A DNA stretch of 37,936 nt, taken from positions 31,185 through 69,120 of the IMG/VR virus record IMGVR_UViG_3300001460_000023, one strand, 5' to 3'. The stretch comes from a virus. The translations under genes and the position numbers were made by a program. Below the pieces are notes generated by a model. That model saw only the letters and a program-made list of their open reading frames with translations. It did not search any database and was not told the DNA's origin. This document shows, piece by piece, positions 1-37,936 of this stretch. Position 1 is the stretch's first letter; the number at the start of each line of letters is the position of its first letter.

Positions 1-140
1 CTTACATAGTTTTCACCTTCCACAATTTCAATTTTGTCTGTTGATCCTTTTGAAGACGATGGTAGTTTTTTAGCCAGTTCCTTATCCTGTTCTGCTAATG
101 ATTTACTTGTCTTGAACGCTGATCTGTCAAATTTTGCCAT
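1..140 (-). CDS. Partial protein, possible phage ssDNA-binding protein (N-terminus only)
   Basis: An open frame starts at the ATG at 140-138 and runs off the left edge, giving 46 residues that begin MAKFDRSAFKTSK. The visible part is charged and Ser/Lys-rich and ends with KIEIVEGENYV. Many phage gp32-like single-strand-binding proteins have a short charged N-terminus followed by a similar (E/K)-GxNxxR-type strand, so an SSB is my best guess, supported by the UvsY-like and polymerase genes just upstream. This is inference from a fragment; no zinc site or OB fold can be seen. It is the last gene of the replication module in this window, 67 bases after the previous stop. Confidence 0.4.
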   Translation of the reverse strand, partial: MAKFDRSAFKTSKSLAEQDKELAKKLPSSSKGSTDKIEIVEGENYV

Positions 141-207
141 AATAATAGCTGTTTTTATATATATAATTATTAATTGATTATCCTTGAGGACCATCCCCAA
201 AAATTTT

Positions 208-738
208 TTAGAATTTTTTTTCTGATCTTTTGATCATTACACTATTTATAGAACCCTCAAGTATTTCTCCCTGGAAGTCATCTGGAGTTAAATTGTCTGC
301 AAACTTATTTAACTTCATTTCCTTAGACTTAACTGCCCAATATAATGAGTCAATTTGCTCTGACTGTTTTTGAGACTTAAATAATTGCCTTTTGTGTGAC
401 TGGACCTCTGGATCTGTTATAACTGCATTGTCAACCTCTGCAATGGTAGGTTTCTTTGTCTTCTTACCATCATTTGTTGAAAGTCCCTCTCTGTAATACT
501 CTGACCTTTCTGCCTCCAGTATTTTAACTTTTAAGGCTTGCTCTCTGTATTCATTGTCTACATCTGCCTTAAGTAGACCAACCTTATTCATTAAGGTTGC
601 TATTGTTAATACCTCTCCTACCAGGTTGTCATAGTGTATCCTGGTCAAATCATCCATGTCAATCTCTGGATCAAATGGAGTACTTTTTAAATGGTAGATA
701 TTTTTACCTACCTCAATGAAATGAGTTTGCTTTTCCAT
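208..738 (-). CDS. UvsY-like recombination mediator candidate
   Basis: 176 residues, mostly predicted helical and strongly charged. The layout resembles T4 UvsY, which loads the UvsX recombinase onto gp32-coated single-stranded DNA: an N-terminal helix with a conserved Asn/Lys pattern (around LMNKVGLLKADVDNE), an EAERSEYYREG segment, then a dipeptide-rich linker, a DPEV motif, and a final helix ending LYWAVKSKEMKLNKF that resembles the UvsY AIKSRG-type C-terminal helix. It is somewhat longer than UvsY (137 residues). It sits between the DNA polymerase gene and a possible SSB gene, which fits a recombination/replication role. The similarity is by eye and remote; a general hypothetical protein is the alternative. 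ATG start, no Shine-Dalgarno. Confidence 0.45.
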   Translation of the reverse strand: MEKQTHFIEVGKNIYHLKSTPFDPEIDMDDLTRIHYDNLVGEVLTIATLMNKVGLLKADVDNEYREQALKVKILEAERSEYYREGLSTNDGKKTKKPTIAEVDNAVITDPEVQSHKRQLFKSQKQSEQIDSLYWAVKSKEMKLNKFADNLTPDDFQGEILEGSINSVMIKRSEKKF

Positions 739-817
739 AATATCTTGTAAATTTCTACTAATGTAACGCTTTTATTTTTAAATATAATAAATAAACTTAA
801 AAATTTAAGTTATTTAT

Positions 818-3800
818 TTAAAAAACATCAATTTTAGTACTATTGTTGGACTGTAAAACATTTACTTTTTTAAACCCATCAAACCTAACTGTTCCTGAAA
901 TTATCAATATACCCAATGTAGCACCCTCAACCATTTCTTTAAACTTATACCATTGCTTTGCCCATATTAACACATATATCTCCTCATCATTGCACTCTAA
1001 CAGTATAGAGGCAAACTCTTCTTTCTTTTTAGTTTTCCTTAGAACCAGATCCTTTATAGTACCTGCCTGAATAAATGACTTGTCCAAACTTTTTTCCAAC
1101 AACATGTTTTCTGGATGGTCATATAAAGATATTATACTACCTAACTTACTTCTAAGAATCATGGTATGAAAATCAAAATGTCCAAACTTTGAAACTTCTT
1201 TTTGTTTAAGTACCCAGAACCAGGCAAACTTTGCCTCAGTTGGTAGTTTAATTCTTGCATGATCTTTTATAGACTCAAGGTCATAATATCTACTTAAAAC
1301 TGCCCTCCTGTCAACTATAGAAACAACATTGCAAATTTTATCAAAACAACCTCCCAGGATTAAGTTTTCCATAACCCTTTTATTTACAGATCTTTTTTCA
1401 ATTCTATCACAAAAATTTTCTAATGATGTAAAGTCACCAAGGTCATTTCTTGAGTCTACAATTGCCTTTGTTGCTGTAACACCAACAAATGATATTTTGT
1501 TAATTGCCCAATATATCTCATTCACTCCTGGATCTGAAATAAACTCAGTGGATGACTTATTCACACATGGAGGAACAATTGATACCCCATTTTCTAATTT
1601 TGATAACTCTGATATATACCTTTGGATTTCATCTTGCTTTGCCCACTCAAACGCTGTGGTCCAAAATTCCAATGGATGGTTTACCTTCAACCACTGTGAC
1701 ATGCAGCCAGTTATTGAATAGGCTGCTGCATGGGACTTATTAAACCCATACCCTGCAAATGCCTCAAGTTTATTCCATATAACAATGGCATCTGACTCTC
1801 CACAACCCCTTTCCATGGCTCCCTCAACAAACTTGCTCTGGTACTCCCTGATCAACTTCATCTTTTTCTTTCCCATTGCTTTCCTGATGTCATCAGCAAC
1901 AACCAGGTCAAACCCACCCAAAACCTGGACTGCCTTCATAACCTGCTCCTGGTAAATATACAAACCATAGGTATCTTTGGTAACATCTTCCAACATATAG
2001 TCAAACTCTGGCTCCTTCACTCCAAATTTAAACTTTACATAATCATTGTGTGCCTGAGATTCCATGGCTCCTGGTCTATATAAAGAGATCATATCTATCA
2101 TCTCATTTATATTTGTGGGACAAACCTCCTGAGAATAACCAGTTAGACCTCTGGAACCAAAATGGAATACATCTGATGAATGACCCTTTTGAAATAAGTC
2201 ATACATATTTATGTCTTCAAGGTCCAGGCTGTCAAATGATAAGTCAATTCCTTTATTCTTTTTAACTTTATCAAATACACCCCTAAATTTATCTAATTGA
2301 GCAATACCCAGGATGTCCTCTTTTAAAAAACCTGCATCTTCTAAATAACCACCCTCCCACTCACTGACCAAAACTCCATCAATTATCTTAACTGGCATCC
2401 AGTTATATATATTTCTGTCCCTACCATACTGATCCTTTTTTGGAAGTATCAATGTAGCACATGCATGTACAGATTGGTTTCTGACATTTTTGAGAATAAT
2501 TGGAATAGTATCTATAATATGTGGATTATCATTTACAAACTTTTTTAATTGAGGTTTCTCCAATGCCTGCTTAAATATTTGAGTTATGTCAGTATCCATA
2601 CCAGGACCCAACTCCAACATGTTTGAAATGTAATTAAGTGCTTTGCCATCCAGGTGAAATTTTTTACCTATCTCCTGAAGTGCTGACTTTAGCTTAAAAG
2701 TACCATATGTACCAACTGAACAGACATACTCCAACCCATACTTTTGCTCCATATATCTCTTAACCTCATCTCTTCTCTCCCCCTCAAAATCAGTATCAAT
2801 ATCTGGAAGAGATGTCTGAACCCTACCCTCATTTAGGAATCTTTCAAATAACAAACCATATTCAATTGGATCAACTCCTGTTACATCTAATAAGTATGAA
2901 ACTAAACATCCTGCTGCAGAACCTCTACCTATGCCTGTCAGTATATTTTTAGACTTACACCACTCAACAATGTCCCATAGGATCAAAAAATAATCAATTA
3001 CTCCACCCTTTGAGATAACCTCAATTTCGTTACCTAATCTATCCCAGTAGTCATCTTTATTGGACAAACCCTTCCTTTCCATGCCCTCCTCTAATAACCT
3101 TAAGAACAACTCATCATTTGACTCTTTGCCATCATGCTCAAATAAGGGAAGATGTCTGGCTCCTGTTTCTATCTCAAACTCAGCATTGTCAGAGATCCAC
3201 ATGGATGAGTCAATGCCAGTATAAAAAATATCAAAAAGTCTTTCATCCTCCTCTCCAAATAAATTTGCCCACTGCATAAATACTTCATCCAGGGACTTCA
3301 TGTGCTGATCCTTTGACTGACTCTGGAACTTTACTCCTCCAATGGTATTAAGTATCTTTTTTACATGTGAGTACTCCTGGTCAAGGTAAAATGCATCATT
3401 TATAAGTATTGGATCTATATGTTCTGTAAAATTGTCTATATAATTTTTTAATGATAATAGCCTGGCTTTGTCCTTTTCATAACCCTTAAACTTAGTGGTA
3501 TCAAATTGGTAAAAAACTTTATCAAATGATCCTTTAATAAGTTTAACTCTGTCACTGCTCAAATATGTATCTGGTCCAAAAACAAAAACCAATCCTTTGC
3601 TATACTCAGTAAGTTCACTTTCTGATATTTTCTTATTGGTTTCATTGTCAACATTTATAATCTTGTTTATATACAGTAAATTAAACCAACCCTCTTCACT
3701 CAGTACATATAGCTTTGCATTGTACTGGTAAAAAGAGTCATCCTCTACAGATATACTTTCTCCAAGAATAAAATCAATTCCTGCACCCTTACACTCCTGT

Positions 3801-4258
3801 TGAAAAGGAAGTGTGCCTGCCAGGGTATTGTGCTCACATATACCCAGTGAATTAAAGCCATTAAATTTTGCCTTTTTAATCCAGTCACTATACTCTCCTG
3901 ATCCATTACATATCTCATACCTACCCCTTAATCCTAAAAAAGAAAAGTCAACCTCTCCAAGTTCAGACTTCCTGGCACCTATATATTTAAGTAAATTAAA
4001 ATCTGGACTTTCAAATTTTTCTATGGAGGTATAGTAAAAATTATTACCAAACTTAAAACAGAAATTTTTACAGTTTATTTTAGAAACAAATTGAAATTCA
4101 CTATTAGTTACATTAAGGTTGAAGTCACCTGTTATAACCCTATCTCCAGGATCTAAAAAATAAAACTGATCCTCTCCTATAGTAAACAGCCTATCATCAA
4201 GAAAATTTGCGTTTAGTCCATTGTTGTCTATCCACTGGTGAAGTAGTTGTGTATTCAT
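818..4258 (-). CDS. dnaE: DNA polymerase III alpha subunit (DnaE/C-family replicative polymerase)
   Basis: 1146 residues. Family-C polymerase that would copy the phage genome at the fork. An N-terminal extension of about 100 residues precedes a PHP-like domain (about 105-290) in which the usual HxH metal motif reads LGLRGRYE, so the domain is probably catalytically dead; GICEHNTLAG (139-148) marks the next PHP strand. The palm carries GIGRGSAAG (442-450) and the catalytic PDIDTDF (485-491, Asp486/488/490), with a third likely Asp at 648 in KEDILG. The fingers include YQEQVM (769-774) and GYGFNKSHAAAYS (836-848). The last 110 residues look like an OB fold. No proofreading domain is fused; a DnaQ-type gene lies at 9228-9863. 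It follows a 75-base gap with a promoter candidate. Confidence 0.95.
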   Translation of the reverse strand: MNTQLLHQWIDNNGLNANFLDDRLFTIGEDQFYFLDPGDRVITGDFNLNVTNSEFQFVSKINCKNFCFKFGNNFYYTSIEKFESPDFNLLKYIGARKSELGEVDFSFLGLRGRYEICNGSGEYSDWIKKAKFNGFNSLGICEHNTLAGTLPFQQECKGAGIDFILGESISVEDDSFYQYNAKLYVLSEEGWFNLLYINKIINVDNETNKKISESELTEYSKGLVFVFGPDTYLSSDRVKLIKGSFDKVFYQFDTTKFKGYEKDKARLLSLKNYIDNFTEHIDPILINDAFYLDQEYSHVKKILNTIGGVKFQSQSKDQHMKSLDEVFMQWANLFGEEDERLFDIFYTGIDSSMWISDNAEFEIETGARHLPLFEHDGKESNDELFLRLLEEGMERKGLSNKDDYWDRLGNEIEVISKGGVIDYFLILWDIVEWCKSKNILTGIGRGSAAGCLVSYLLDVTGVDPIEYGLLFERFLNEGRVQTSLPDIDTDFEGERRDEVKRYMEQKYGLEYVCSVGTYGTFKLKSALQEIGKKFHLDGKALNYISNMLELGPGMDTDITQIFKQALEKPQLKKFVNDNPHIIDTIPIILKNVRNQSVHACATLILPKKDQYGRDRNIYNWMPVKIIDGVLVSEWEGGYLEDAGFLKEDILGIAQLDKFRGVFDKVKKNKGIDLSFDSLDLEDINMYDLFQKGHSSDVFHFGSRGLTGYSQEVCPTNINEMIDMISLYRPGAMESQAHNDYVKFKFGVKEPEFDYMLEDVTKDTYGLYIYQEQVMKAVQVLGGFDLVVADDIRKAMGKKKMKLIREYQSKFVEGAMERGCGESDAIVIWNKLEAFAGYGFNKSHAAAYSITGCMSQWLKVNHPLEFWTTAFEWAKQDEIQRYISELSKLENGVSIVPPCVNKSSTEFISDPGVNEIYWAINKISFVGVTATKAIVDSRNDLGDFTSLENFCDRIEKRSVNKRVMENLILGGCFDKICNVVSIVDRRAVLSRYYDLESIKDHARIKLPTEAKFAWFWVLKQKEVSKFGHFDFHTMILRSKLGSIISLYDHPENMLLEKSLDKSFIQAGTIKDLVLRKTKKKEEFASILLECNDEEIYVLIWAKQWYKFKEMVEGATLGILIISGTVRFDGFKKVNVLQSNNSTKIDVF

Positions 4259-4290
4259 TAATGTTTAAGTTTGTGGTAAAAAATATCTTA

Positions 4291-4320
4291 CAAATATAAG
4301 ATTTATATCTGTAAGTAAAA
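4291..4320 (-). promoter_or_regulatory. Candidate Bacteroidota-type promoter before the polymerase gene
   Basis: On the minus strand TATATTTG (4298-4291) matches the Bacteroidota -7 consensus TAnnTTTG exactly. TTTT lies 18 bases upstream at 4320-4317, an imperfect match to the -33 TTTG. The polymerase ATG is 32 bases downstream. The -7 element overlaps a small hairpin (ATCTTA/TAAGAT, loop TATTTG) followed by TTTTTT, so a weak terminator for the gene upstream is an alternative reading. Confidence 0.35.
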
Positions 4321-4333
4321 ACTTTAAATGTGA

Positions 4334-4813: not shown

Positions 4814-4850
4814 CCCAATCCTTATTTATTGTATTTGTTAAAAATAATAA

Positions 4851-5879
4851 TTATAAGTCTCTTTTTTGAATTTTACTTTGGGAAAATTGTACAGGGGACT
4901 TATAATTAATTAAACTGTCCAATATTTCCTCCTGAGTCATGTCTCCTGGGTCCTTGTCTTCAGGACATGAACACACACCTATTTTATCAAATGTAAACTC
5001 CAGGTCCAGTCCATATTTTGAACTGCTGTCAACTGCATCTGGATCATACATTATCATTATAGTTTTCACACCTCTATCCTTGGCTGCATCAACTTGCTCT
5101 GGACTAAATTTTTTACCCCAAGTGCAACACACAACCAAACCCAAATCACTTATAAGACTCCCCATTTGAATCTCAATGTTTATCTTATCAAAAAGTCCCT
5201 CAACTATGATTATACCTTTATGTATTCCTGGGAAATGGTCCTCTATGCCATAAAGTATTTTACTGAAGTCAGTATCTGCTGAGTTTATATACCTCAATAC
5301 AAGAGGAGTCTTGGTGCCATTTTTACTATTTTTTGACTTAATATTTTTATTTAGAATATCAATTTCAGACTTTTCCTTTAAACTCCTGGATACATAGCCT
5401 CTGGACTCTCCTGCCACTACTATTTTAAATACTATATAGTCCTTAAATTTTTTAGTTAGCTTTGTTATTCCAATTGGATACTTTTTAAACTGGGCATCAG
5501 TAAAGCCTCTACCCTTTAAATAATCATGACTCTCTATTCTCCTCCAACCTGCAGGAGGTGAAATTTTTGGCAACTCCTCATACTCTTCACTGTCTAACTC
5601 CATAAATGGATTTGTGATATTTTCAAAAACATCTGTTTCCTTCCAACCATCTTTGTCCTTTATTAGATCAGTTCTGTCAAGAAATGCAAGTAACTTAAAT
5701 ATATTGCCAGACTCACCACAATGCTTTCCCCTAAAACACCCATAAAGGTGATTCTCTTCCAGGGAGATCCCAAACTCATCCTCACCACACCAGGGACATG
5801 TACCATAAAGATTCTTACCTTTATGATCAGGTTGACAATTGTCAATCAGTGACTCTATTATTTCCTGTGAAAACTTCAA
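4851..5879 (-). CDS. DnaG-type DNA primase (CHC2 zinc finger plus Toprim)
   Basis: 342 residues. It would synthesise RNA primers for the phage fork. The N-terminus has a CHC2-type zinc finger: CPWC (Cys28, Cys31), then GCFRGKHC (Cys48, Cys54), followed by GNIFKLL as in DnaG. The Toprim core is visible as IIIVEGLFDK (Glu227) and IMIMYDPDAVD (Asp279, Asp281), with DKDPGDMTQEE (310-317) after it. No helicase domain is fused; the helicase gene is immediately upstream. The start codon is TTG at 5879-5877. An in-frame TAG sits directly before it and the next Met is residue 93, beyond the zinc finger, so TTG is nearly forced. Only 7 bases separate it from the helicase stop. Shorter than bacterial DnaG (about 600), as is usual in phages. 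Confidence 0.9.
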   Translation of the reverse strand: MKFSQEIIESLIDNCQPDHKGKNLYGTCPWCGEDEFGISLEENHLYGCFRGKHCGESGNIFKLLAFLDRTDLIKDKDGWKETDVFENITNPFMELDSEEYEELPKISPPAGWRRIESHDYLKGRGFTDAQFKKYPIGITKLTKKFKDYIVFKIVVAGESRGYVSRSLKEKSEIDILNKNIKSKNSKNGTKTPLVLRYINSADTDFSKILYGIEDHFPGIHKGIIIVEGLFDKINIEIQMGSLISDLGLVVCCTWGKKFSPEQVDAAKDRGVKTIMIMYDPDAVDSSSKYGLDLEFTFDKIGVCSCPEDKDPGDMTQEEILDSLINYKSPVQFSQSKIQKRDL

Positions 5880-5886
5880 CTATAAA

Positions 5887-7233
5887 TTATTTAGGTTTAT
5901 AAAACTCCTTTGTTGTTTTTAGCCTGTCATAAAATTTCTCATAGTCATAGTTTTGATATATATGAATTAACTGACCAGATTTATATTTTCTGATCTTATC
6001 CATATACAATCTCATTATGCCTTTCTTCTTTTCATCTGGAGTCTGGTTCATTGTAATAAAAAATGAAAATGGGTCCACCAGGTTCTTACCTTGAGATGTA
6101 TTGAATCTTGTCATGTAGTACTCTGGTTTATCAAGTAGTGACTGATCAATACCATGTGCCTGGGTACAGGTTACTATCCTGGTATCAAACTCAACTGCAA
6201 TGTTTTTCATTTTTTGTGCTATTGCCTCTCTCCTGGCTTTTTCCTGCTCAACCTTATATGACCTACCATCTCCAGGATCTAATTTTTCCAAATAATCTAT
6301 TAAAACCAAGTCAATTTTACCATTTGTCTTTTCCAACTCGATTATTGACTCTCTTACATCTGACATGGATGCAGTTCCAAACTGCTCATATGCCTCAACA
6401 TATATTTCACCACCCAAATGCTTAAGGTTACTTATTGTTTTGTCTATCCTTACCTTTTGTATGTCAGTAACTGCACCCTCTTCTAAAGAATGCAATAGTA
6501 CTCCAGACCAGGTTGCATCATATAAGTCCAGTGCCTCACTTTTGGTTCCCTCTGCCTGGAAATGTGCAACCCTATACCCTAATCTGGCTGCATTAACTCC
6601 TATCCATTTTAATACTTTTGATTTACCAACTCCAGACTGTGACAATAAACATGCAATATCACCTGCAGATATGCCTCCCCTGGTTCTATAGTCCAACTCA
6701 TCAATTCCAAACGGAATCCTAAAATTATTTACATTTGCTGACTCATCTCTTGGAACCCTGGAGATCATCCTTTTCTCAAAGTCTCCAAACACCTTATCAA
6801 AGTAATGTGATTTAATTGAAAACCCTGTAAGGTCCTCTGCAAACTCTTCCATGGCTTTATAAGCCTTATCCTCCTCACCAGAGGAAAAGATCTGGTACAA
6901 CTCATCATATGCTGTTCTAAACTTAGCATTTTTGATGTACTTCTCCAACTGATCTATTAAAGGATCTCTTTCTGGCATTCCAACATCTTTCATGTTTGAA
7001 AGAAGGTTGAGCACCTCTGCACTGTCAGCAAACATCTGACCCAATATTCCTATTGTTGGAAGTGCTGTATGTACCTTATAATGGTTCTGGATACCTTGCC
7101 AAAGTGACTTATAGTGCTTACTTGGCAAATATGTTGGCTTTAAGTGAGCAATTCCTGTCTCCAGGACAGAACTACTTGCCAAACAACTTTTGAAAAACTC
7201 CAATAAGAAGTCTTCATTTAACAATCTTGACAT
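5887..7233 (-). CDS. DnaB-type replicative DNA helicase
   Basis: 448 residues. Hexameric 5'-3' helicase expected to unwind the fork and stimulate the adjacent primase. Residues 1-110 are a helical DnaB N-terminal-like domain; the RecA core starts near residue 175 (PFGIDELDYRTRGG). Walker A is SQSGVGKSK (198-206, Lys204), followed by VAHFQAEGTKSE (222-233), the position of the catalytic Glu motif. Walker B is IDLVLIDYLEKL (307-318, Asp313), and TRIVTCTQAHG (351-361) is the following sensor strand with its polar Gln. Length is close to bacterial DnaB (about 470). ATG start, preceded by AAAAAAGATTGTAA with no Shine-Dalgarno sequence. It lies between the terminase and primase genes in the same operon. 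Confidence 0.93.
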   Translation of the reverse strand: MSRLLNEDFLLEFFKSCLASSSVLETGIAHLKPTYLPSKHYKSLWQGIQNHYKVHTALPTIGILGQMFADSAEVLNLLSNMKDVGMPERDPLIDQLEKYIKNAKFRTAYDELYQIFSSGEEDKAYKAMEEFAEDLTGFSIKSHYFDKVFGDFEKRMISRVPRDESANVNNFRIPFGIDELDYRTRGGISAGDIACLLSQSGVGKSKVLKWIGVNAARLGYRVAHFQAEGTKSEALDLYDATWSGVLLHSLEEGAVTDIQKVRIDKTISNLKHLGGEIYVEAYEQFGTASMSDVRESIIELEKTNGKIDLVLIDYLEKLDPGDGRSYKVEQEKARREAIAQKMKNIAVEFDTRIVTCTQAHGIDQSLLDKPEYYMTRFNTSQGKNLVDPFSFFITMNQTPDEKKKGIMRLYMDKIRKYKSGQLIHIYQNYDYEKFYDRLKTTKEFYKPK

Positions 7234-7271
7234 TTACAATCTTTTTTCAATTTTGGTAAAAATATATTTTT

Positions 7272-8924
7272 TTAAAGGAATGACCAATTAAAAGATCCAA
7301 TTTTTGTAGCTTTTATTGCAATCCACAAACTCATTGGACAGTCATCATGTGCTCCAACACCCTGGATCTTACCCTTACTGTCATCCCATGTAAAAGTAGA
7401 CAGTTCCTGTACCAGGATGTCTGTAAGATCCTCACTCATCTTGTTACCTCTTGGTATATGAATCCTTCCTTGTTCAAATAATGCTGCTAAGTTTGGAATA
7501 CCCTGGTGAAGATCATATTTGTTTTTTGATGAGGTTGTTTGCCCCTGGGCAGGAACACCTTGATCATTTAACATTTGGACAAATATTTTCTGCATACCAT
7601 TATCCTCAACCAACAATACATCTGGCTTGAAGTCCTGGTACATTTTTTTAATTGCCCCAACTTGCTCATCATATGTGGCACCCTGCCTTCTCCAAATGTC
7701 CAGGATGTGATAGTGGTCCCTCTCATCCAAACCTACTGCTGTGAATACTGAAAAGTCAGCACCAATATTTGCTGATATAGCAAAATCACAACCTATAACA
7801 ACCTTCTTAAATTTTTCTCTGGAAGAGTGTATGTTTTTAATTATACTGGTATTGTGATTAAAACATTCTTTAATCACTGGGTATGGAAATAATGATGATG
7901 CTGTAGAAATGGGTCTAACCAGTATCTCTCTTGAGAAAACAACACTTCCATACATTTGTCTTTTTTCCAACAAAGATTCAAATGAGTGCCTTTCCTGCCA
8001 TAGTGCCCTACCGTTTGGAAATATTCCTGGATACTCAAACATCCTGAACAGACTTGACTTTTTCAACTCAGCATATAGATCATCTTTTCTGAATGGAGTA
8101 CCTACAACCACAATTTGACCTCCTGGTTCCAGTAAGTTCATTGTTACTGAGAAAAAATGATCTATGTACTTTTTGTTTTGCTCCATTGAGTAAAGGACCT
8201 GATCATTAAGGTAGTCATCACATATTATGTAATTTGGATGAAAACCCCTCATCTTACTACCAACTGACTTTGCAGAAAGAATGGCACCATTTTTACACTT
8301 TATGCCCTCTGCTGCCCATCCATCACTTCTTTTATCTGGCATGAGTACTGACCTAAGAATATCATTCTCCTCTATCTCTTCCTTTACCTTTCCCAAAAGG
8401 TGATTTGCAAGTTTGTATTCATTGGTTATGATCATACCTTCTTTACAAAAAGCCAGGTCCTTTGGTGCCTTTTTAAGGGAAGTGTTTTTCATGTACCTGT
8501 ACATTTTCCAGAGAGGAAATACTTTTGAAAAGTAGAAAGACTTACCATGACCCCTGGCTGCCTCTATTCCAAGATGAGGATATATTTGTGCCAGGTTCCC
8601 CCACTCTAAATGATGCCAGTTAATATCAAAGTCTGGCATTGTTGCAAGAATAAAATAACTCAAACTTGCTTTTCTTAAGGTATCCTCCAAAACCTCAACC
8701 AGTGGATCAAGACTTTCTATTTTTGATGGATCCACTCTCCTGTTTGGCATATTCAAAATAGAATGTGCCTCCTCAAACATTATCTTAAGTATTCTATCAA
8801 CATCAGCCTCATCACCAGACATCAATATCTTCATGGCATGTTCATCCATGTTTGATATTATGTCCTCATTAAATGATATTATGTCCTCTGCCTGCTTTAC
8901 TGTGTACTTATCACTTAGCAACAT
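7272..8924 (-). CDS. terL: Terminase large subunit (packaging ATPase/nuclease)
   Basis: 550 residues. Motor and nuclease that cut concatemers and pump DNA into the prohead. The N-terminal ATPase has Walker A AARGHGKSF (122-130, Lys128), Walker B NYIICDDY (231-238) and a coupling-like motif IVVVGTPFRKDD (271-282). The C-terminal RNase H-like nuclease shows VIGCDFA (377-382, Asp380), GADFSV (388-393, Asp390), LLVEDNG (437-443) and GAHDDCP (524-530, Asp527/528), the expected acidic cluster. Length is typical for TerL. It overlaps the preceding small gene by 14 bases. Unusually, it lies among replication genes and not beside head genes. No intein or frameshift is visible. Confidence 0.93.
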   Translation of the reverse strand: MLLSDKYTVKQAEDIISFNEDIISNMDEHAMKILMSGDEADVDRILKIMFEEAHSILNMPNRRVDPSKIESLDPLVEVLEDTLRKASLSYFILATMPDFDINWHHLEWGNLAQIYPHLGIEAARGHGKSFYFSKVFPLWKMYRYMKNTSLKKAPKDLAFCKEGMIITNEYKLANHLLGKVKEEIEENDILRSVLMPDKRSDGWAAEGIKCKNGAILSAKSVGSKMRGFHPNYIICDDYLNDQVLYSMEQNKKYIDHFFSVTMNLLEPGGQIVVVGTPFRKDDLYAELKKSSLFRMFEYPGIFPNGRALWQERHSFESLLEKRQMYGSVVFSREILVRPISTASSLFPYPVIKECFNHNTSIIKNIHSSREKFKKVVIGCDFAISANIGADFSVFTAVGLDERDHYHILDIWRRQGATYDEQVGAIKKMYQDFKPDVLLVEDNGMQKIFVQMLNDQGVPAQGQTTSSKNKYDLHQGIPNLAALFEQGRIHIPRGNKMSEDLTDILVQELSTFTWDDSKGKIQGVGAHDDCPMSLWIAIKATKIGSFNWSFL

Positions 8925-9227: not shown

Positions 9228-9863
9228 TTAAAAATTAAACGTATCTCTGTAGTTATGTTGATCATTATTTGTAGATATTTCACCTGCACCCCTGAGCCTT
9301 TTTAAGTAAGACTTGAGCAATTCAGTGTTTGCAGCAACATCATTTATTGCCCTATGTGCATCTATGATCTCAACCCCCTCCCTTTCACAGGCAACGGTTA
9401 AATTGTGTTTCATAGAAGGATCTGTCCATATGTGCCTGGACATCCACATTGTATCCATAAACTCATGCTCATTGACAGTTTTAAATAGGTCCTTCTTATA
9501 TGTTTTAAACAAATTATCCAAGAATGGTATGTCAAATGAAATTATGTTATGTCCACATAAAATTGGTTTCTTTCTACCAGTTCCTATTGACTTAAAAAAC
9601 TTCACCATTTCATTACAAACCTGCCTGGCTGCTTTACCAGTATTAATCATGTCCATGGTTATTCCTGTTATGTCAAATGCCTCCTGCTCATACTCCAATC
9701 CATATGGTTGAACAAATGTACTGTACCTGTCAATCTCTTCCAGGGTAACCCCATCTATTGCAAGCATAGCTACCTCTGTTATTGCATGCTTAGAAGAGTC
9801 TAACCCACCTGTCTCAAGGTCAAAAATTATATAATTTTGACCGTTTACTATCTTTTTATTCAT
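9228..9863 (-). CDS. DnaQ-type 3'-5' exonuclease (proofreading-subunit-like)
   Basis: 211 residues. DEDDh exonuclease: Exo I IIFDLETGG (12-20, Asp15 and Glu17), Exo II GHNIISFDIPFL (104-115, Asp111), Exo III DAHRAINDV (168-176, His170 and Asp175). All catalytic residues are present, so it should remove 3' mismatched nucleotides. The family-C polymerase encoded at 818-4258 has no exonuclease domain, so this is probably its proofreading partner, like epsilon of bacterial Pol III; a stand-alone repair nuclease is the alternative. Length matches the epsilon catalytic domain. Two bases separate its stop from the next ATG. Confidence 0.92.
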   Translation of the reverse strand: MNKKIVNGQNYIIFDLETGGLDSSKHAITEVAMLAIDGVTLEEIDRYSTFVQPYGLEYEQEAFDITGITMDMINTGKAARQVCNEMVKFFKSIGTGRKKPILCGHNIISFDIPFLDNLFKTYKKDLFKTVNEHEFMDTMWMSRHIWTDPSMKHNLTVACEREGVEIIDAHRAINDVAANTELLKSYLKRLRGAGEISTNNDQHNYRDTFNF

Positions 9864-12300: not shown

Positions 12301-14820
12301 TTATGACTGTTTAATTCTTTGAACAAACCCTAAAACCATATACTCTGGTCTACTTTCATGGTGATCTATTGCATCTTTCCCATCAAGTTGTACCAATGGT
12401 TCAAACTCTGTTTTACCACTTATAATTCTGGTATCTCCAAAGTCTGTCTTTCCTGCATAGTTATGCTGATGACTTGATCCTGCACTTCCTGTAAAGTTAT
12501 CGGTTGTTGTATCATAGTTCTCTCCTTTTACAAAAACCCGACTATCACCTCCAGAGTTTTTTGAAACATCAAAACCTGGATGGGTATGCTCTGACTTGGT
12601 ATCATTTGTAGTTACACCTGAAAAATTATGTTTGTGGTCAGGACCCTGCAATGAACCTGCTTGGTGCCTGTGCCTTTGAATACCTGACTGTTTACCTGTT
12701 AGTAATACAGAATGTGTTCCAAAGGTATCTCCAACATTATCAAACTCTGCTGTCAGATAAGTTCCATAACTTGAACCTCTTGGAGTACCATAATTTGCAC
12801 CTCCAATAAACCTTTGCCTTAAGTCCTGAGTCCCATTTGACCCATTACAAAGTGCCCAACCTTGGTGCCTGGTACCTAATATTGCTTTACCTGAAGAAAA
12901 GTCTGCCATATCAACATTAGATAGCATCTTTATGTCTCCCAACTTATCTGTCAAGCCATTTACCTCATAAACCTCCCAGGCTGAACCATTAAATGTACAC
13001 CTAAGAACAATTGATTTACCTGTCAAATGAGGAAAGTCCATCTCATCTACAGAAAAGGTTCTAATTACAGTACCTGGAGTAAAGTAGGCAGTAAAGTCAT
13101 CATTTACAGTGAGACTGAAACCTGCATCATTAATACCTACATCAAATATAAAAGTGAATGAGTTTCCAATTAGTGCCCCTGCTTTTTTAAGACCTATTAT
13201 GTGGTTTACTGTCATTCCACCACCACCTCTGACACCTTTACATCTTTGTACTGACTGATCAAGACCAACCTCAAACGTGTTTCCTGGTGCCCCATTATCC
13301 AACTCAAAAGTTCCATACCCAAACACATCACCTGTTTTAAGAGATGCAGTGAATAATTTGTAAGAACTTGCATCTTGCAGTACTGGAATAAACCCTGCAG
13401 GATTTGAACTTGTATAAACAGACCTTACTGGACTTGAAATAAGGTCACCGTTATCATCAAACTGTACCTCATTGTAAAAACCATTTGCAGTATCTGATGG
13501 AATGTCTAACCACTGAGTTGACTCACCAGACTTATGGTACCTGTATTGTATAACATACTTGTATCCATTTGATGGGACTGGTAAATTTAGGTGACCATAA
13601 CCACATGAAGATGGAAAAGAAACCTGCAAGTCTACTACATTAACAACACCTCCATCACCTATAGCCTTAATTTCCACCTCATCAACTGAGGGAGAAATAG
13701 TCAACTCATCACCAACGGTTAGTTTGCTTGGATCATGTGACTTAAGAAAACACTTAATATCTGATCCTACAAGTGTGGAATCGTATATTTCACTATATGA
13801 CCCATCCTTATAATAAACCCTCCAACCATTTAACTCATCATCTGAAAATTGACTTGTAGTTTTATACTTACCTGAATCTATTGATCCTGAAAATGTTATA
13901 GTCCTTGCCTGTGAATCTGAGGTCCAAACATTACTTCTTAAACCCCAACCAACATTTACAATATTTTTATCCCTGGCTGTAGACTTTTCAGAATACTTTA
14001 CCCACTCAACCCCAATTAAAGGATTGGCTGCTTTTATTATATTATTTAACTTAAACTCTGCTGAAGACTTCCAGAACTCTGTTCTTTTATCTTCAATGGA
14101 TACCGTACCACCTACATTTTGACACCTGGCTATAAAAAACTCCAAACCATCTGACTTGGTAGGTGCAGTGTTTAAAGATGGCTCTGCTACCAGTGATAAG
14201 GTGCAACCATCATATTTAAAAGGATACTTTTCACTTGCCAGTGGAACTGCTCCAGGAGTGAATGTTCCAACTACCTGGTATGTTAAGTTAGTTTCTGCAA
14301 TAAAGGATCCATCCAACAATACTGTGCTATCATTAAGGACCTCTACAACCTCATACTCCAGTGGATTCACTGATGACCCTGGAAATGAGATCTTACTTGC
14401 AAAGTTTGGTGCCCCTCTTAGGACATCTGTAAAAACAGTACCTGATCCAGTTAGATTTCCGTTTGCATCTACACTGACAGTACCAATTTCATTTGTTTTA
14501 TAACTGTGGGAAATTTTTACCCAGTAAAAAGCACTGTCATTTGGAACTACAACATCACCCACAACATCCTGAACAATTATCTGTGCAGCATTATTAATAG
14601 CAAATGACTTGGTTGCTATCTTTATTTTTCCTGACCCAAGGACATCCTGCTCTACCCTAAAATTGCTACCATTAGCATCTGCCTCATACCTCAAAACACC
14701 AAATGATCCTGAGTTTTTGACCATAAGTTCTCTAAACCCATCCTGGTCCAGGAATTTTATAAGCCTATTAAGTTCTGCTTTTCCAAGAAATAGATCAGTG
14801 TTATTATTTAATATTGCCAT
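12301..14820 (-). CDS. Tail fibre with tail-collar domain and histidine-rich metal-binding tip
   Basis: 839 residues. The N-terminal half is beta-rich and may attach to the baseplate. The C-terminus has the phage tail-collar signature GWALCNGSNGTQDLRQRFIG (654-673), as in T4 gp12-like short fibres. The tip carries four HxH motifs: HRH (717-719), HKH (729-731), HTH (745-747), HQH (784-786), and ends RPEYMVLGFVQRI, matching the usual ESRPPY-VLGY-type collar ending. In T4 gp37/gp12 trimers, HxH motifs bind metal ions along the fibre tip; I infer the same here. Likely role: receptor binding during irreversible attachment. ATG start; 9 bases after the preceding gene. Confidence 0.87.
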   Translation of the reverse strand: MAILNNNTDLFLGKAELNRLIKFLDQDGFRELMVKNSGSFGVLRYEADANGSNFRVEQDVLGSGKIKIATKSFAINNAAQIIVQDVVGDVVVPNDSAFYWVKISHSYKTNEIGTVSVDANGNLTGSGTVFTDVLRGAPNFASKISFPGSSVNPLEYEVVEVLNDSTVLLDGSFIAETNLTYQVVGTFTPGAVPLASEKYPFKYDGCTLSLVAEPSLNTAPTKSDGLEFFIARCQNVGGTVSIEDKRTEFWKSSAEFKLNNIIKAANPLIGVEWVKYSEKSTARDKNIVNVGWGLRSNVWTSDSQARTITFSGSIDSGKYKTTSQFSDDELNGWRVYYKDGSYSEIYDSTLVGSDIKCFLKSHDPSKLTVGDELTISPSVDEVEIKAIGDGGVVNVVDLQVSFPSSCGYGHLNLPVPSNGYKYVIQYRYHKSGESTQWLDIPSDTANGFYNEVQFDDNGDLISSPVRSVYTSSNPAGFIPVLQDASSYKLFTASLKTGDVFGYGTFELDNGAPGNTFEVGLDQSVQRCKGVRGGGGMTVNHIIGLKKAGALIGNSFTFIFDVGINDAGFSLTVNDDFTAYFTPGTVIRTFSVDEMDFPHLTGKSIVLRCTFNGSAWEVYEVNGLTDKLGDIKMLSNVDMADFSSGKAILGTRHQGWALCNGSNGTQDLRQRFIGGANYGTPRGSSYGTYLTAEFDNVGDTFGTHSVLLTGKQSGIQRHRHQAGSLQGPDHKHNFSGVTTNDTKSEHTHPGFDVSKNSGGDSRVFVKGENYDTTTDNFTGSAGSSHQHNYAGKTDFGDTRIISGKTEFEPLVQLDGKDAIDHHESRPEYMVLGFVQRIKQS

Positions 14821-24860: not shown

Positions 24861-26060
24861 TTATATAGTCTTTAATATTGTTTGCTGAAATGATGAGTCT
24901 GGATCACTTGGAAAAAAGTTTGGATTCAATGATCCTGCTACATTACTTATTACATTTCCAGATAGATCCAACATAAGAAAACTTCTAATTCTTGGAAGTT
25001 TATTTTTGGCAATTATAACATCTTTCCCTGGAATAAACTTTGTATCTGGAACTGCTTTGACACCTGTTGTATTTTTTGCTATTGATAGCAATTCATCCCA
25101 CTCAACTTTTTTGTCTGCAGTCCAGAATCTAAAATCAAGATATTTACTAAATCTGATCTGAATTTCTTTTCTTATGTCATCTGGATTAAATGATGGAAGT
25201 AACTCAACCCTAAAAGTAATATCTATAGGTTGAAAGTCCATGTTTCTCAACTCAATAAGAGAGGATGTTGTACCGTATGGTTTAAGATCTGAAATTGATA
25301 GATATTTGGATGCTCTGGTTTCAATGTCGTTTAACTCTGAGGTTGTTAGTCCTATTCCGTTTTGAGTTGCTATTGCCAAAACAACCTGGCTGTGTGCATT
25401 GGTTCCCTGGTAAAAAACTCTAAGAACATTATTGTTTATCTTACCAAATACTTGAGTTAATTTTGAAATTGTACCTGTAGCTGCTAAATTGGACCCCTCT
25501 TTTATTCTTTTCTTGAAGGTATCATCAGCCTCATTGTCCCTACCACCAAAACACCCATACTCATTAACAGTATAGCTGTGACCTGTTGGAGTTGGAGAAA
25601 CTGAGTCAATAGATAATGGATCTACGTTTGTATTTGATCCACTGGTCTGACTTCTAATTTTAACATATGCATACCCGTTTACACCAATCACCACTGTAGA
25701 CTCTATGTCAAATACTATTCCATCCCTTCCTGTAAAAGTATTTAGTCCTGCAGTATATGTTGTACCAGGAAGACCAACCACTCTCACAAAAGTTGAACTC
25801 TGAGATGAACCAAACCTGGCTGACACCCCTCTTGATTGTGCAATTTGATCTAACTGTATGCCATATGCAGAATCAACTAAAATATGTGCCTCAACCAAGG
25901 CAATGTCTTTTATTGCTTTCTGACCAATCTTTGCCATAGCAAAGGTTATTCCACTCAATACGCTATTGTCAGAGATCTTATTTACTTTGGTTGTGTTGTT
26001 AAGTATAGTCTCTGCTGCAATTTGTTTAAGTTCACTTATAGTTGACAGTCTTACATTCAT
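24861..26060 (-). CDS. Baseplate J-like protein (wedge component)
   Basis: 399 residues. Baseplate_J family, the P2 gpJ / T4 gp6 type wedge protein that forms the ring around the hub and relays the signal for sheath contraction. The family signature GGRDNEADDTFKKRIKE (172-188) is clear, preceded by a beta domain with GLPGTTYTAGLNTFTGRDG (96-114) and an N-terminal helical part (DSAYGIQLDQIAQSRGV). The C-terminal half is the usual alpha/beta domain. Length fits gpJ-like proteins (300-400). ATG start with A/T-rich leader; 36 bases after the previous stop. Confidence 0.9.
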   Translation of the reverse strand: MNVRLSTISELKQIAAETILNNTTKVNKISDNSVLSGITFAMAKIGQKAIKDIALVEAHILVDSAYGIQLDQIAQSRGVSARFGSSQSSTFVRVVGLPGTTYTAGLNTFTGRDGIVFDIESTVVIGVNGYAYVKIRSQTSGSNTNVDPLSIDSVSPTPTGHSYTVNEYGCFGGRDNEADDTFKKRIKEGSNLAATGTISKLTQVFGKINNNVLRVFYQGTNAHSQVVLAIATQNGIGLTTSELNDIETRASKYLSISDLKPYGTTSSLIELRNMDFQPIDITFRVELLPSFNPDDIRKEIQIRFSKYLDFRFWTADKKVEWDELLSIAKNTTGVKAVPDTKFIPGKDVIIAKNKLPRIRSFLMLDLSGNVISNVAGSLNPNFFPSDPDSSFQQTILKTI

Positions 26061-32375: not shown

Positions 32376-32400
32376 TTATTTTTTTTATTTTATTATATTT

Positions 32401-34188: not shown

Positions 34189-34189
34189 A

Positions 34190-34537
34190 TTAAACCTTTA
34201 TGTTGTCAAACAAATCATCAAACTCCTCACTTGATAAACTATCCTCTGAATCAGATAAAAAGTTTCCACCACCAGGCACATACTTATCATCAATCCCTGG
34301 ATTGTCTGATATTGTTTTTACAAAGTGGTTATCCAAGTCCTCTTTTTCTTTTTCCAGATCTTTCTGAAGTTCTGCAAAAAATTTGAACTCTTCAATCTCC
34401 AGGACCATATCCACAGGACACATTTTTCTGTGCTCTGGTGAAAATAAAGAAACCTTATGCCTTTCTCTCCAGGCATGATCATAAGGATGATCAAGATTCC
34501 ACTTCTTTATTACATCTAAGAAGTTTCCCTTTGTCAT
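34190..34537 (-). CDS. Small protein in the tail-assembly-chaperone position (2)
   Basis: 115 residues, acidic. Contains LDHPYDHAWRERHKVSLFSP followed by EHRKMCPVDMVLEIEEFKFF, then a Glu/Asp-rich end. The HPYD-WR--H pattern recurs in small phage proteins just upstream of tape measures. It is probably part of the tail chaperone system, but the classic programmed frameshift from the previous gene is not available here (stops lie in the way). It starts 11 bases after the 136-residue gene and its stop is adjacent to the tape-measure ATG. Confidence 0.7.
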   Translation of the reverse strand: MTKGNFLDVIKKWNLDHPYDHAWRERHKVSLFSPEHRKMCPVDMVLEIEEFKFFAELQKDLEKEKEDLDNHFVKTISDNPGIDDKYVPGGGNFLSDSEDSLSSEEFDDLFDNIKV

Positions 34538-34548
34538 ATTTACGATCT

Positions 34549-34959
34549 CTATACCTTACTAATTTTTTTACTTTTAGCTTTGACTGTTTCAGGTTCCACC
34601 TCTTCCTCCTCAAAGTTTCCCTGTGCCAGGTTCTCATATTTTTTCCAAAAAGGAATAAACTGATCCTTATACACAGACAATAATTCTATTGCATCTATTG
34701 CATCTATTTTTGTTAAGTCAACCTTTGCATCCTTTAATATGTTTGGGCAAAGAGTTGAAAAGTAAGCTATCATATCAATATAGTCCAGTGCTCTTAGCAT
34801 ACTAACCATATTTGACTGTAGCATGTCTCCATACTTTCCGTTTGACAGTGTAATTTTCAAACTTTCTATTTGAATTAACTCACCTACTGTTGGAAAGTTA
34901 ACCTCATAACTGTTTTTTTTGATCTTTAATTTTGTTGATCTTTCAATTCCTAAATCCAT
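34549..34959 (-). CDS. Small protein in the tail-assembly-chaperone position (1)
   Basis: 136 residues. N-terminal beta strands (RSTKLKIKKNSYEVNFPTVG), a helical middle (IDMIAYFSTLCPNILKDAKV) and a Lys/Glu-rich tail ending KKISKV. Such a gene between tail tube and tape measure is the usual place for the gpG-like chaperone that coats the tape measure before tube assembly. ATG start directly after the 34985-35022 terminator, so its expression depends on readthrough or on a promoter I cannot identify. Confidence 0.72.
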   Translation of the reverse strand: MDLGIERSTKLKIKKNSYEVNFPTVGELIQIESLKITLSNGKYGDMLQSNMVSMLRALDYIDMIAYFSTLCPNILKDAKVDLTKIDAIDAIELLSVYKDQFIPFWKKYENLAQGNFEEEEVEPETVKAKSKKISKV

Positions 34960-34984
34960 CTTGTTCTATTTTACTATTTGCTAT

Positions 34985-35022
34985 AAAAAAATAAATGGCA
35001 TCCATATTTTGAATGCCATTTA
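34985..35022 (-). terminator. Rho-independent terminator after the tail tube gene
   Basis: Inverted repeat TAAATGGCAT (34992-35001) and ATGCCATTTA (35013-35022), 10 base pairs with an 11-base loop; on the minus strand it is followed by seven T (34991-34985). It sits 42 bases after the tube stop codon. It could lower expression of the downstream tail genes relative to the abundant sheath and tube. Confidence 0.8.
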
Positions 35023-35064
35023 AAGATAACTATTTTTTTGTATTTCTCACTTGATGCCTTCTTT

Positions 35065-35610
35065 TTATGTGAAGATAATTGGTTGAGTGTAGGCAAATTC
35101 TTGGTTTCTACCAGAAAGACCGTTCTCTGTTATTTCAAATGAGTCTCTCTCTAAATGAACACCCTTAACCTGAGCAAACATTGGTTGAGTATTTACATCT
35201 GACTCCTTTTGACCTGTTGTTGCATCAGTAAAGTCATGTATTTTTTTATAAATATCAAGAGTTATACCCTCTCCCTCTAAGGCTATGTGCTCCATTAATG
35301 CATTAACTGAAGTAACCCTTCTAATAACACCCTGGTTACCACCAGTTGTTGGTCCAGATCCTATCCCTGCTGTAGCTGCAGTATTATCAAAGATACCTGC
35401 CACACCATCAGACTCAAAATCTATTGAATAGAATGCACATGATACTGTTCCACTCCACTCCAATGCAGGAAGTTCTGAAGGATGTAACCTTCCAATACCT
35501 TGGACCTTACCCCTACTTATGTTTTCATTTACACTTATATTTTTCATCTTACCAATCACTGAACCGTTTAGTTTTATGATTGCCAGTGCACCTGTTAATA
35601 CTTGAGCCAT
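35065..35610 (-). CDS. Tail tube protein
   Basis: 181 residues. Forms the inner tube of the contractile tail through which DNA passes. Beta-rich: ALAIIKLNGSVIGKMKNISV, then a GRLHPSELPALEWSG segment and VSCAFYSIDF, the pattern of gp19/XkdM-like tubes, with EITENGLSGRNQEFAYTQP near the C-terminus. The length (about 180) is typical. It lies directly downstream of the sheath gene, as in most myophages. It starts with ATG after a leader of TAAATTTAAAATAATTACAAG with no Shine-Dalgarno. Confidence 0.83.
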   Translation of the reverse strand: MAQVLTGALAIIKLNGSVIGKMKNISVNENISRGKVQGIGRLHPSELPALEWSGTVSCAFYSIDFESDGVAGIFDNTAATAGIGSGPTTGGNQGVIRRVTSVNALMEHIALEGEGITLDIYKKIHDFTDATTGQKESDVNTQPMFAQVKGVHLERDSFEITENGLSGRNQEFAYTQPIIFT

Positions 35611-35647
35611 CTTGTAATTATTTTAAATTTAAACTTAACTATCTTTT

Positions 35648-37645
35648 TTAAAATCCTAAGTAAACCGTACCAGTAAAGAACAATTTAGTTATCTCAGTAT
35701 TTAATACCACATCATATGTAGTCTTATATGCATCCTGGTCAATAACCGTAACTACATTTCTAAATCCAAGTATTAAATTGTCTGCTGAAGGTTCTGCAGT
35801 TCTGTCCTGCAAATATGAAGTAACAAACGCTGTTACATCTCCTGCAGATATTGTGTTTCTATTTGATCCAAGAGGATTCTTAAGTAACCTTTTTGAATTA
35901 ATAACTATCTCAGTATTTAATTGAGAAATAAGTCTCTTAAATTGTATTGAGTGAGATGTTGCATCTGGATTAAGCAAGAACTGGTTATCTTGTAAAGAGT
36001 TTATACCCTGAAGTACCTCAAGTCTGGCTCCATCATTTATGGTAACCAAAACTCCATTGTCAAGTGACTGGTTCTGTTCTTTAATATTAAGAACATGTAA
36101 GTCTCCATCAAATGCTATAGTTTTGAAAGTAATTGGAATCTGAGGTGATAAACCTGCAATCCTTCCAAGTGTTGCTGCTGCTTTATGTAAAGATGTTTTT
36201 TCTATGAATCCATCTGGAGATGATGTTGTGTTTTTCTTAACTCCTCCATGGACCACTACCACTCTATCATTGTCATAATACTGTGCTATGTCAATTGATC
36301 CATTTACAACTCCAGGTGCAAATTTATCTGCCTTTCTACCACCACCTACAACTATCATCTTATAACCAAACGTATCCTGGTTAACAATATGTGCTGCCAA
36401 TTTACCATTGTCAGTACTCTTGGCATTGTCTTCATACTGATCAGCCAAGATCCAAGAATAATTTAATGACTGTGCTGCCAATAATACCTCATCCAATTTT
36501 GTTGTACTGTACACTTCAGTACCTCCAGAAAACTTATTTATTCCTGCATTTGCAGTATTATCTGCTGTGGTTACTACTCCAGTACCTACAACCGTTTTGG
36601 ACTTTAATTTAAAAAATGCACCAAACACCACATTTGTTTCCATCCAGGCATGCAATGTTGCAATATTGTTGAACTCTGGAGATGTTGCCAGTAAAATGGC
36701 TGCTGTCTTAGACTCTTCAATACCATCATAGTGGTATCCATTTTCATCTGCACCCTTATAAGATCCTCTGAATAATTTTACTTGAAATTTTGTAGCATCA
36801 TTAATGCCAACTGACATAACAATACCTGCTCCTCTTGTAAGTTTTGTACCATCAACTCCTCCTGCAAATGTTGCTGCTGTTCCTGTAGCTGAACCTGTTA
36901 CAGTATATGCTGTAGAAATACCATTGAAGTCTGATGCACCCTCAAGTGCCACTGGCTGTCTTGATGTAACTGTTATGTTTGCACCTGATGCCACTGCAGT
37001 GTACCCTGAAGATCCTGCATTAATTCCATCTGCAATTGCTGATGCTGTTAAACTTATAGACAGTGGAGTTGCAGGAACTGTGTAAGCAAATATGTCTGTT
37101 GATCCATTTTTTGGATCTGTTACAGTTAATGTATGTGTGTTTCCAGTTGCTCCAACTGCAGTCACTATAAATGCTGTAGTAGTGGTTGAAAGGATTTCAT
37201 TACCTTCAACTCCATTTCCTGAAATACCTTCATTTTTATACTGGATTACTGCAGTACCACCATTTGAACCACCTCCTGAATAAGTTATGGTTGCCTCTGC
37301 AGCTACGGTTGTTGCTGCTCTTGCATATAGCAAAGATGATGCCCCTGGACTTACTCCAGGACCATTTGGTTGAAATATCTTCTCAGAAATGTCCCAAAGA
37401 ATACCACCTCCAACTGCATCCCTAAATTCTTTTAGTGTAGAGGAAGAGTATATTGCATTTGTTCCTGATGCAAGTGTACCTGAGATACCTGATCCTGCTC
37501 CAAAACCTGAACCACTACCAGTATCTATAATCAATACATTTCCAAATGCATTTGCTGATGCAGGATTGTTAACACTTGCTGTAAACTGTGAGTATGTTCC
37601 TGGCAATGATGCCACACTATTATTGAAGTTGAATTTTGTTGCCAT
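35648..37645 (-). CDS. Tail sheath protein
   Basis: 665 residues. Contractile sheath that shortens during infection. The N-terminus has the sheath strand pattern (NVLIIDTGSGSGFGA). A large insertion at about 160-262 (TLTVTDPKNGSTDIFAYTVP; ASAIADGINAGSSGYTAVAS; GANITVTS) is the beta domain found in many phage sheath and other virion proteins. The core follows: WILADQYEDN, FGYKMIVVGGG, NDRVVVVHGGV. The C-terminal half (TSLHKAAATLGRIAGLSPQI; RRNT-like GSNRNTISAGDVTAFVTSYL; ITKLFFTGTVYLGF) is the sheath C-terminal domain. The gene precedes the tube gene by 37 bases, the standard order. Confidence 0.92.
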   Translation of the reverse strand: MATKFNFNNSVASLPGTYSQFTASVNNPASANAFGNVLIIDTGSGSGFGAGSGISGTLASGTNAIYSSSTLKEFRDAVGGGILWDISEKIFQPNGPGVSPGASSLLYARAATTVAAEATITYSGGGSNGGTAVIQYKNEGISGNGVEGNEILSTTTTAFIVTAVGATGNTHTLTVTDPKNGSTDIFAYTVPATPLSISLTASAIADGINAGSSGYTAVASGANITVTSRQPVALEGASDFNGISTAYTVTGSATGTAATFAGGVDGTKLTRGAGIVMSVGINDATKFQVKLFRGSYKGADENGYHYDGIEESKTAAILLATSPEFNNIATLHAWMETNVVFGAFFKLKSKTVVGTGVVTTADNTANAGINKFSGGTEVYSTTKLDEVLLAAQSLNYSWILADQYEDNAKSTDNGKLAAHIVNQDTFGYKMIVVGGGRKADKFAPGVVNGSIDIAQYYDNDRVVVVHGGVKKNTTSSPDGFIEKTSLHKAAATLGRIAGLSPQIPITFKTIAFDGDLHVLNIKEQNQSLDNGVLVTINDGARLEVLQGINSLQDNQFLLNPDATSHSIQFKRLISQLNTEIVINSKRLLKNPLGSNRNTISAGDVTAFVTSYLQDRTAEPSADNLILGFRNVVTVIDQDAYKTTYDVVLNTEITKLFFTGTVYLGF

Positions 37646-37695
37646 AATAATTTTAATATCTTATGTATCTATTTATTAAATATAATGAAAATTTA

Positions 37696-37923
37696 TCATA
37701 TTAAACCCTCTGTTTCAAATAACTTTTTCCACTCTTCTTTTGTTTTTTTACCGTACCCCTTAAACTTTAAATTTGCAACAAAGGCAATTGCACCATCACC
37801 TGCTGTTAAATTACAATACTCTATATGACTAAATAAAGTTTTAACCTTTTCCTTTTTAGGTTCGTCTTTTTTTATCTCAGTTTTTTTTGTTGAGGTTTTT
37901 TTTGTTGTTTTTTTAGCTGCCAT
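37696..37923 (-). CDS. Small Lys-rich protein
   Basis: 75 residues. The N-terminal third is almost all Lys, Thr and Ala (AAKKTTKKTSTKKTEIKK), an intrinsically disordered basic tail. The rest (about 27-75) is a small folded-looking part, LTAGDGAIAFVANLKFKGYG, then KTKEEWKKLFETEG. Not recognised; a basic DNA-binding, neck or head-completion accessory is possible by position before the sheath gene. ATG start at 37923 near the right edge, so its own upstream signals are outside the window. Confidence 0.65.
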   Translation of the reverse strand: MAAKKTTKKTSTKKTEIKKDEPKKEKVKTLFSHIEYCNLTAGDGAIAFVANLKFKGYGKKTKEEWKKLFETEGLI

Positions 37924-37936
37924 TTTATTTTTTTTT

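Follow-up and report, generated by a model that had tools for sequence, protein, structure and literature searches.

The stretch of DNA analysed here (the window, 37,936 nucleotides at its full length) comprises positions 31185-69120 of the 69,120-base virus record IMGVR_UViG_3300001460_000023 (G000), which is itself a fragment, and it is characterised by the loss of almost all of its CpG dinucleotides. The depletion extends evenly along the phage DNA (1..37936, no strand assigned), in which only 88 CG are present, giving an observed/expected ratio (o/e) of 0.074, and the values of its 2-kb bins all fall within 0.018-0.141, none of them near normal, as had been anticipated by a preliminary description of this DNA in which the pattern was said to continue throughout. 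GpC in the same window stands at 0.87. The preliminary description had also named a ratio near 1 over the full genome as the outcome speaking against it; the whole record, with 154 CG, gives 0.074, far from that value. The four CGs it had reported within bases 1-1740 are present at 57, 117, 767 and 1652, two of its positions being exact (57 and 1652) and two (118 and 766) one base off each, and the roughly 45 that it expected there agree with the 44.8 given by composition. Relative to base composition the phage has lost about 93% of its CpG, and its density is 2.2 CpG/kb. The observation is thus confirmed, and it is larger than was then thought, for the depletion recurs in unrelated virulent Bacteroidota phages.

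Nearly all genes of the window lie on the minus strand, and this holds for each of those named here. They encode a DNA polymerase III alpha-like protein of 1146 aa (818..4258; PF07733, phrog_405), which served as the query for relatives and has its nearest records in Bacteroidota phages, a DNA primase-like protein (4851..5879; phrog_47, E 1e-25), a DnaB-like helicase (5887..7233; PF03796, phrog_19), the terminase large subunit on which the family tree is based (7272..8924; PF17289, phrog_38) and an RNase T-type exonuclease, a DNA polymerase exonuclease subunit (9228..9863; PF00929, phrog_192). A tail fibre-like protein (12301..14820; phrog_8469), with tblastn matches to MA9V-3 and DAC16-type phages, is found among named records only in Bacteroidota phages. 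The baseplate J-like protein (24861..26060; PF04865, phrog_6) would place the phage among contractile-tailed phages, and a weak tail-sheath match (35648..37645; phrog_1480, E 7e-4) fits a myovirus. Portal, RecA, thymidylate synthase, RNase H and SMC-like ATPase genes are located elsewhere in the record, in which neither tRNA nor Rfam RNA was detected. No integrase was detected in this apparently virulent phage, and the search was negative in all 11 phages tested, among them CpG-rich siphoviruses. A nucleotide search of the phage collection gave no near relative; among named records, the closest belong to phages infecting Chryseobacterium, Cellulophaga, Tenacibaculum and Bacteroides. The Bacteroidota -7 promoter motif TAnnTTTG occurs upstream of genes 11 times on the coding strand and 4 times on the other, the shuffle mean being 2.5 and none of 300 shuffles reaching 11. 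Because the nearest named phages infect Bacteroidota and this motif is enriched upstream of genes, the host is most likely a Bacteroidota.

The preliminary description had further noted an arginine written with AGA/AGG only, and these codons indeed make up 98.0% of the arginine codons of the record, with 15 CGN among 732. Arginine itself is not much rarer here (3.6%) than in L003, L013, L015 and MA9V-3 (3.6-4.7%), whose CpG is higher. The CpG o/e is 0.041 at codon positions 1-2, 0.046 at positions 2-3 and 0.107 across codon boundaries, and since codon choice alone does not force the loss of boundary CpGs, codon usage is insufficient. In four-fold codons a third-base C is used in 0.8% of cases when G follows versus 12-13% when A, C or T follows, and in two-fold codons the corresponding values are 3.2% and 37-41%. 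A synonymous shuffle in which both protein and codon usage are fixed yields a mean of 811 CpGs and a minimum of 758, against 139 observed, and leaves the depletion unexplained by codon usage.

Relatives were gathered with a terminase profile, and the 49 related viral contigs obtained, at a GC of 0.24-0.46, range in CpG o/e from 0.07 to 1.5. An identical depletion shared by all relatives and hosts and explained by codon usage, which the preliminary description had set out as the case against its own claim, is therefore not seen. On the terminase tree the low-CpG state requires 8 changes, and well-supported branches force no fewer than 5 of these. Sister lineages may be far apart (0.20 in L149, 1.01 in L153), and L128/G009, the relative with the closest terminase (54% identity), has a CpG near 1. 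With such a span and such repeated changes of state, low CpG is a labile, lineage-specific trait. Among named phages, the Bacteroides phages DAC16 and SJC03 carry a homologous polymerase and are both CpG-poor (0.10 and 0.14), DAC16 sharing homologous terminase and tail genes too, whereas Chryseobacterium phage MA9V-3, also with a homologous polymerase, has a near-normal CpG (0.78-0.80); the polymerase and terminase proteins of these phages are only 30-37% identical to those of the present one. A GP88-family protein (L001:13342-13932; PF17338) is 66% identical to a gene of the CpG-poor relative G001, an identity exceeding that of all other genes compared between both phages. We considered this gene as a marker of low CpG and rejected it, as it occurs in only 2 of 41 phages (the present one and G001). 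An enlarged thymidylate synthase (L002:13075-14130, 351 aa) has its counterpart in MA9V-3 (L005:16754-17878, 374 aa; 33% identity) and was detected in none of the remaining relatives compared. A 198-aa protein with an HxD...H pattern (L001:12195-12791), without a Pfam or NCBIfam match, resembles by eye a 2-oxoglutarate/Fe(II) oxygenase.

Hosts were sampled as one 16-18 kb stretch from each of 80 Bacteroidota genomes, and their CpG o/e runs from 0.54 to 1.48 with a median of 1.0. B. thetaiotaomicron is the host that could be inspected most directly: its plasmid stands at 1.17 while its phages are found at 0.02 (DAC15), 0.10 (DAC16), 0.14 (SJC03) and 1.40 (SJC14); the B. fragilis phages B40-8 and B124-14 are at 1.16 and 1.22. 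Host matching cannot produce such a spread on a single host, and the CpG-poor host that the preliminary description had offered as one possible cause is not borne out.

The remaining CpGs are strongly structured by sequence context. The hexamer WACGST holds 67 of the 154 in the record, 7.5 being expected, with 42 sites in the window, among them an AACGGT on the coding strand of the terminase gene (8010..8015, minus strand; record coordinate 39194). Its members stand, observed over expected, at AACGGT 30/39, TACGGT 22/35, AACGCT 10/17 and TACGCT 5/15, and the earlier remark that residual CpGs favour ACG/CGT contexts was right and is sharpened to this hexamer. Conversely, CpG flanked by G or C on both sides (CCGG, GCGC, CCGC/GCGG) is wholly absent, with about 322 sites expected. 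Other low-CpG phages spare other contexts, namely CCCGGA (16 observed of 21 expected) and ATCGAT (28 of 74) in G001 and AACGTC (9 of 10) in DAC16, and TCCGGG is the commonest residual context of the phage crAss001 outside its tRNA genes (9 of about 48). Because WACGST sites number 31 in one orientation and 36 in the other and occupy all codon phases, scattered across the record, the residual CpG is not a signal of the mRNA. Selection at the mRNA level was accordingly rejected, WACGST being spared to the same extent in either orientation and the loss of asymmetric words extending to both strands. A context pattern of this kind is expected from an agent that recognises sequence in double-stranded form.

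The depletion is found as well outside this family. crAss001 and DAC15, which belong to an unrelated phage order, show a CpG of 0.016-0.038, equally low in coding and intergenic DNA, and the tRNA genes of crAss001 retain more (0.23), as expected where structure holds the CpGs. The 29 crAss-like loci found by their capsid protein range from 0.013 to 0.44, and the marine relative phi14:2 is at about 0.49. The contig G184 (L296-L300), up to 97% identical to crAss001, is CpG-poor except at 78-80 kb, where a tail region non-homologous to crAss001 has 51 CpGs in 2 kb (o/e 0.76); an assembly chimera is possible, and the island is likely the marker of a recently acquired module. CpG-normal DNA can evidently be acquired, and the tolerance of this island by G184 makes lethality per site unlikely and a slow, cumulative purge probable.

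A separate phenomenon is the loss of restriction-type words. Throughout the record CTAG, GGCC, CCAGC, GAAGC, AGCCC, AGCTC, GTATAC, GAATTC and GATATC are all at zero where the synonymous shuffle predicts 17-111 (CTAG 0/111, GAAGC 0/72, AGCTC 0/63, CCAGC 0/48, GGCC 0/42, GATATC 0/19, GTATAC 0/17 and GAATTC 0/17), and the asymmetric words are absent from both strands. AGCT occurs in the record only as TAGCT/AGCTA. Other words are lost in relatives, such as CCAGG in G001 (0/165), and the normal-CpG relative G011 (L123-L126) strongly avoids several sites (GATC 0/388, CATG 0/194, CTAG 0/135) without CpG loss. These zeros look like the loss of ordinary type II restriction sites, asymmetric ones included, and match, with real zeros, the restriction-site avoidance known for virulent phages (PMC6286503). 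Classical site avoidance makes every site intolerable and leaves none, whereas 154 CpGs remain here and WACGST is near neutral. As CpG is low but non-zero, and as low-CpG relatives such as L139 keep the usual palindromes, the two losses should not be merged.

We consider it plausible, and somewhat short of probable, that these observations reflect selection against CpG in phage DNA, lineage-specific and cumulative, exerted probably through a process of the Bacteroidota host. This host-side process would read unprotected double-stranded phage DNA in a context-dependent manner, restriction-like or silencing-like and without lethality per site, each CpG being only slightly costly, and large virulent phages lacking other protection would purge CpG through synonymous change; we propose that arginine is written AGA/AGG because of this purging. 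Among the causes contemplated in the preliminary description, evasion of a CpG-directed enzyme comes nearest to the evidence, although a classical cutter of every CpG is unlikely given the 154 CpGs that remain and the CpG-normal module tolerated by G184. More doubtfully, the near-complete purging may have arisen convergently in large virulent Bacteroidota phages, gut crAss-like phages included, as an adaptation to an undescribed CpG-sensing host pressure at the DNA level, whose context preference would be recorded in the remaining CpGs (WACGST here, TCCGGG in G001 and crAss001).

Several points weigh against selection by the host. Phages of the same host species or genus (SJC14, B40-8 and B124-14) have a CpG of 1.16-1.40, and crAss002 is at 0.64; since they keep CpG, the pressure spares some phages of these hosts, and the escape of the CpG-normal siphoviruses needs explanation. 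Intergenic CpG is less depleted here (12 versus 40.5 expected, 0.30) than coding CpG (0.069), as in DAC16 (0.66 versus 0.085), where many of the intergenic CpGs, and not all, fall within the repeated promoter sequence TTTCGTACCTTTGC, so that promoter motifs account only partly for the excess. A third-base A after C is raised in the present phage (0.60 versus 0.33), as would result from decay on the opposite strand, and the replacement test discussed below is confounded by neighbour preferences, which differ among non-depleted controls too. Finally, no CpG-directed enzyme was identified. As a side observation, the repeated promoter-like TTTCGTACCTTTGCAGCGTAAAA keeps its CpGs in the intergenic regions L011, L012 and L007 of the CpG-poor DAC16.

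Several candidate genes were tried as correlates of the trait, and neither C5-methyltransferase, deazaguanine genes, integrase, GP88 nor general gene content tracks CpG. A CpG methyltransferase of the phage, which had been suggested as a cause, was rejected after a search of more than 40 related or comparison phages, as a PF00145 gene is lacking from the record (a fragment), from the complete DAC16, DAC15 and crAss001, and from other low-CpG relatives, and the one family member with a C5-methyltransferase gene, G003, is only mildly depleted (0.47). A 7-deazaguanine modification (folE/queD) protecting CpG was likewise discarded, the genes occurring in 12 of 32 phages without relation to CpG, with low values in the carriers L143 (0.23) and L176 (0.15) and 1.5 in the non-carrier L131. 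Integrase fails as a dividing trait, none having been found in either kind among the 11 phages, and each gene of the record with matches in G001 as well as DAC16 also occurs in at least one CpG-normal relative.

Decay of methylated CpG, in which phage CpGs are marked by a cytosine methyltransferase of the host and gradually deaminated to TpG/CpA, is unlikely, though it is the alternative that survives best. TpG/CpA is indeed above expectation (rho 1.27), together with the third-base A already mentioned, yet CC/GG is raised equally (1.28), as the loss of CG alone gives. In five low-CpG genomes T is not the preferred substitute for a C lost before G, the third-position T change against that predicted by C-to-T decay being +57/+287 in crAss001, -4/+121 in DAC15, +108/+317 in the present phage, -362/+53 in DAC16 and -165/+418 in G001, and in crAss001 and DAC15 T, not A, mostly takes the place of a third-position G lost after C. 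The replacement test thus disfavours decay. The sampled hosts show no CpG decay of their own, and known methyltransferases have flank preferences less sharp than the sparing of WACGST and the complete absence of S-CG-S. Methyl-CpG decay, put forward in the preliminary description, is consequently weakened without being eliminated.

The sum of many ordinary restriction-modification specificities in the host population, forbidding almost every CpG word, is also unlikely, and we place it after decay. The nine words at zero are textbook site loss, the empty S-CG-S class and a near-neutral WACGST would be natural outcomes, and the spared contexts vary by lineage; however, L139 is CpG-poor and keeps its palindromes (CTAG 79/85, GATC 165/141), DAC15 misses almost no other word with a CpG of 0.02, and many contexts lie at 0.05-0.24 instead of zero or one. 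A mutational bias other than methylation, arising for example from phage replication or nucleotide pools, would affect coding and intergenic DNA alike, as in the crAss-like phages, and leave a newly acquired module such as that of G184 not yet depleted. We regard it as quite improbable, as phages with a homologous DNA polymerase III alpha range in CpG from 0.06 to 1.3, the gene comparison of G001 and DAC16 yielded no candidate, and a polymerase is hard to reconcile with a rule that spares WACGST. Very improbable is a phage-made CpG-directed nuclease destroying host DNA, with the lack of CpG as self-protection, in analogy with T4 endonucleases, which attack unmodified cytosine DNA: it would explain the independence from host composition and the unaffected siphoviruses, but the comparison made yielded no nuclease common to low-CpG phages and absent from others, GP88 is shared with G001 in 2 of 41 phages only, and residual CpGs would still be cut. 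Least credible of all is that the phage copies a CpG-poor, AGA/AGG-using host, since the published phage-host CpG correlation favouring it (r = 0.74 across phage-host pairs; PMC12132194) is broken in these phages, cross-codon CpGs are depleted even with codon usage held fixed, the sampled hosts are not CpG-poor, and the AGA/AGG share of arginine is 0.36 in the B. thetaiotaomicron plasmid versus 0.985 in its phage DAC15.

Bacteriophages can reach 1-10% of their expected CpG, and have done so more than once, crAss-like lineages included, with sister phages and hosts retaining theirs. Should selection be responsible, Bacteroidota would carry an unrecognised means of sensing foreign CpG DNA or of penalising it; under a mutational cause too, CpG content would offer a practical clock, in which fresh modules are visible as CpG-normal islands. 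Low CpG could also mislead host prediction based on composition.

CpG depletion is usually taken to indicate vertebrate DNA or a virus of vertebrates. The suppression described here resembles that of vertebrate genomes and their viruses, attributed to methyl-CpG decay and to ZAP, in being extreme and independent of codons, and differs from it in occurring in double-stranded DNA phages of bacteria, in being deeper (0.02-0.10), in affecting both strands and in lacking a preferential replacement by TpG; we know of no bacterial counterpart of ZAP. A literature search on CpG depletion in Bacteroides or crAss-like phages found no relevant published description in the collection of papers covered. 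CpG per kb has been measured across phages in a survey of 7,011 genomes, the lowest density of which is 4 CpG/kb (PMC12132194), and the present phage (2.2), DAC16 (1.3) and DAC15 (0.8) all fall below this minimum. That survey seems to have contained no genomes of this kind, since its Bacteroidota phages have 1,203-2,126 CpGs per genome (PMC12132194). The depletion is thus unusual for a tailed phage, as first described, against that survey, and loses its singularity among virulent Bacteroidota phages. With the avoidance of restriction sites by virulent phages (Rusinov et al. 2018, PMC6286503) the record shares the complete loss of short words from double-stranded phage DNA, extended here to asymmetric words (CCAGC, GAAGC) gone from both strands; the purge of CpG differs from it in that a dinucleotide is removed in nearly all contexts to a low, non-zero level, independently of whether other words are avoided.

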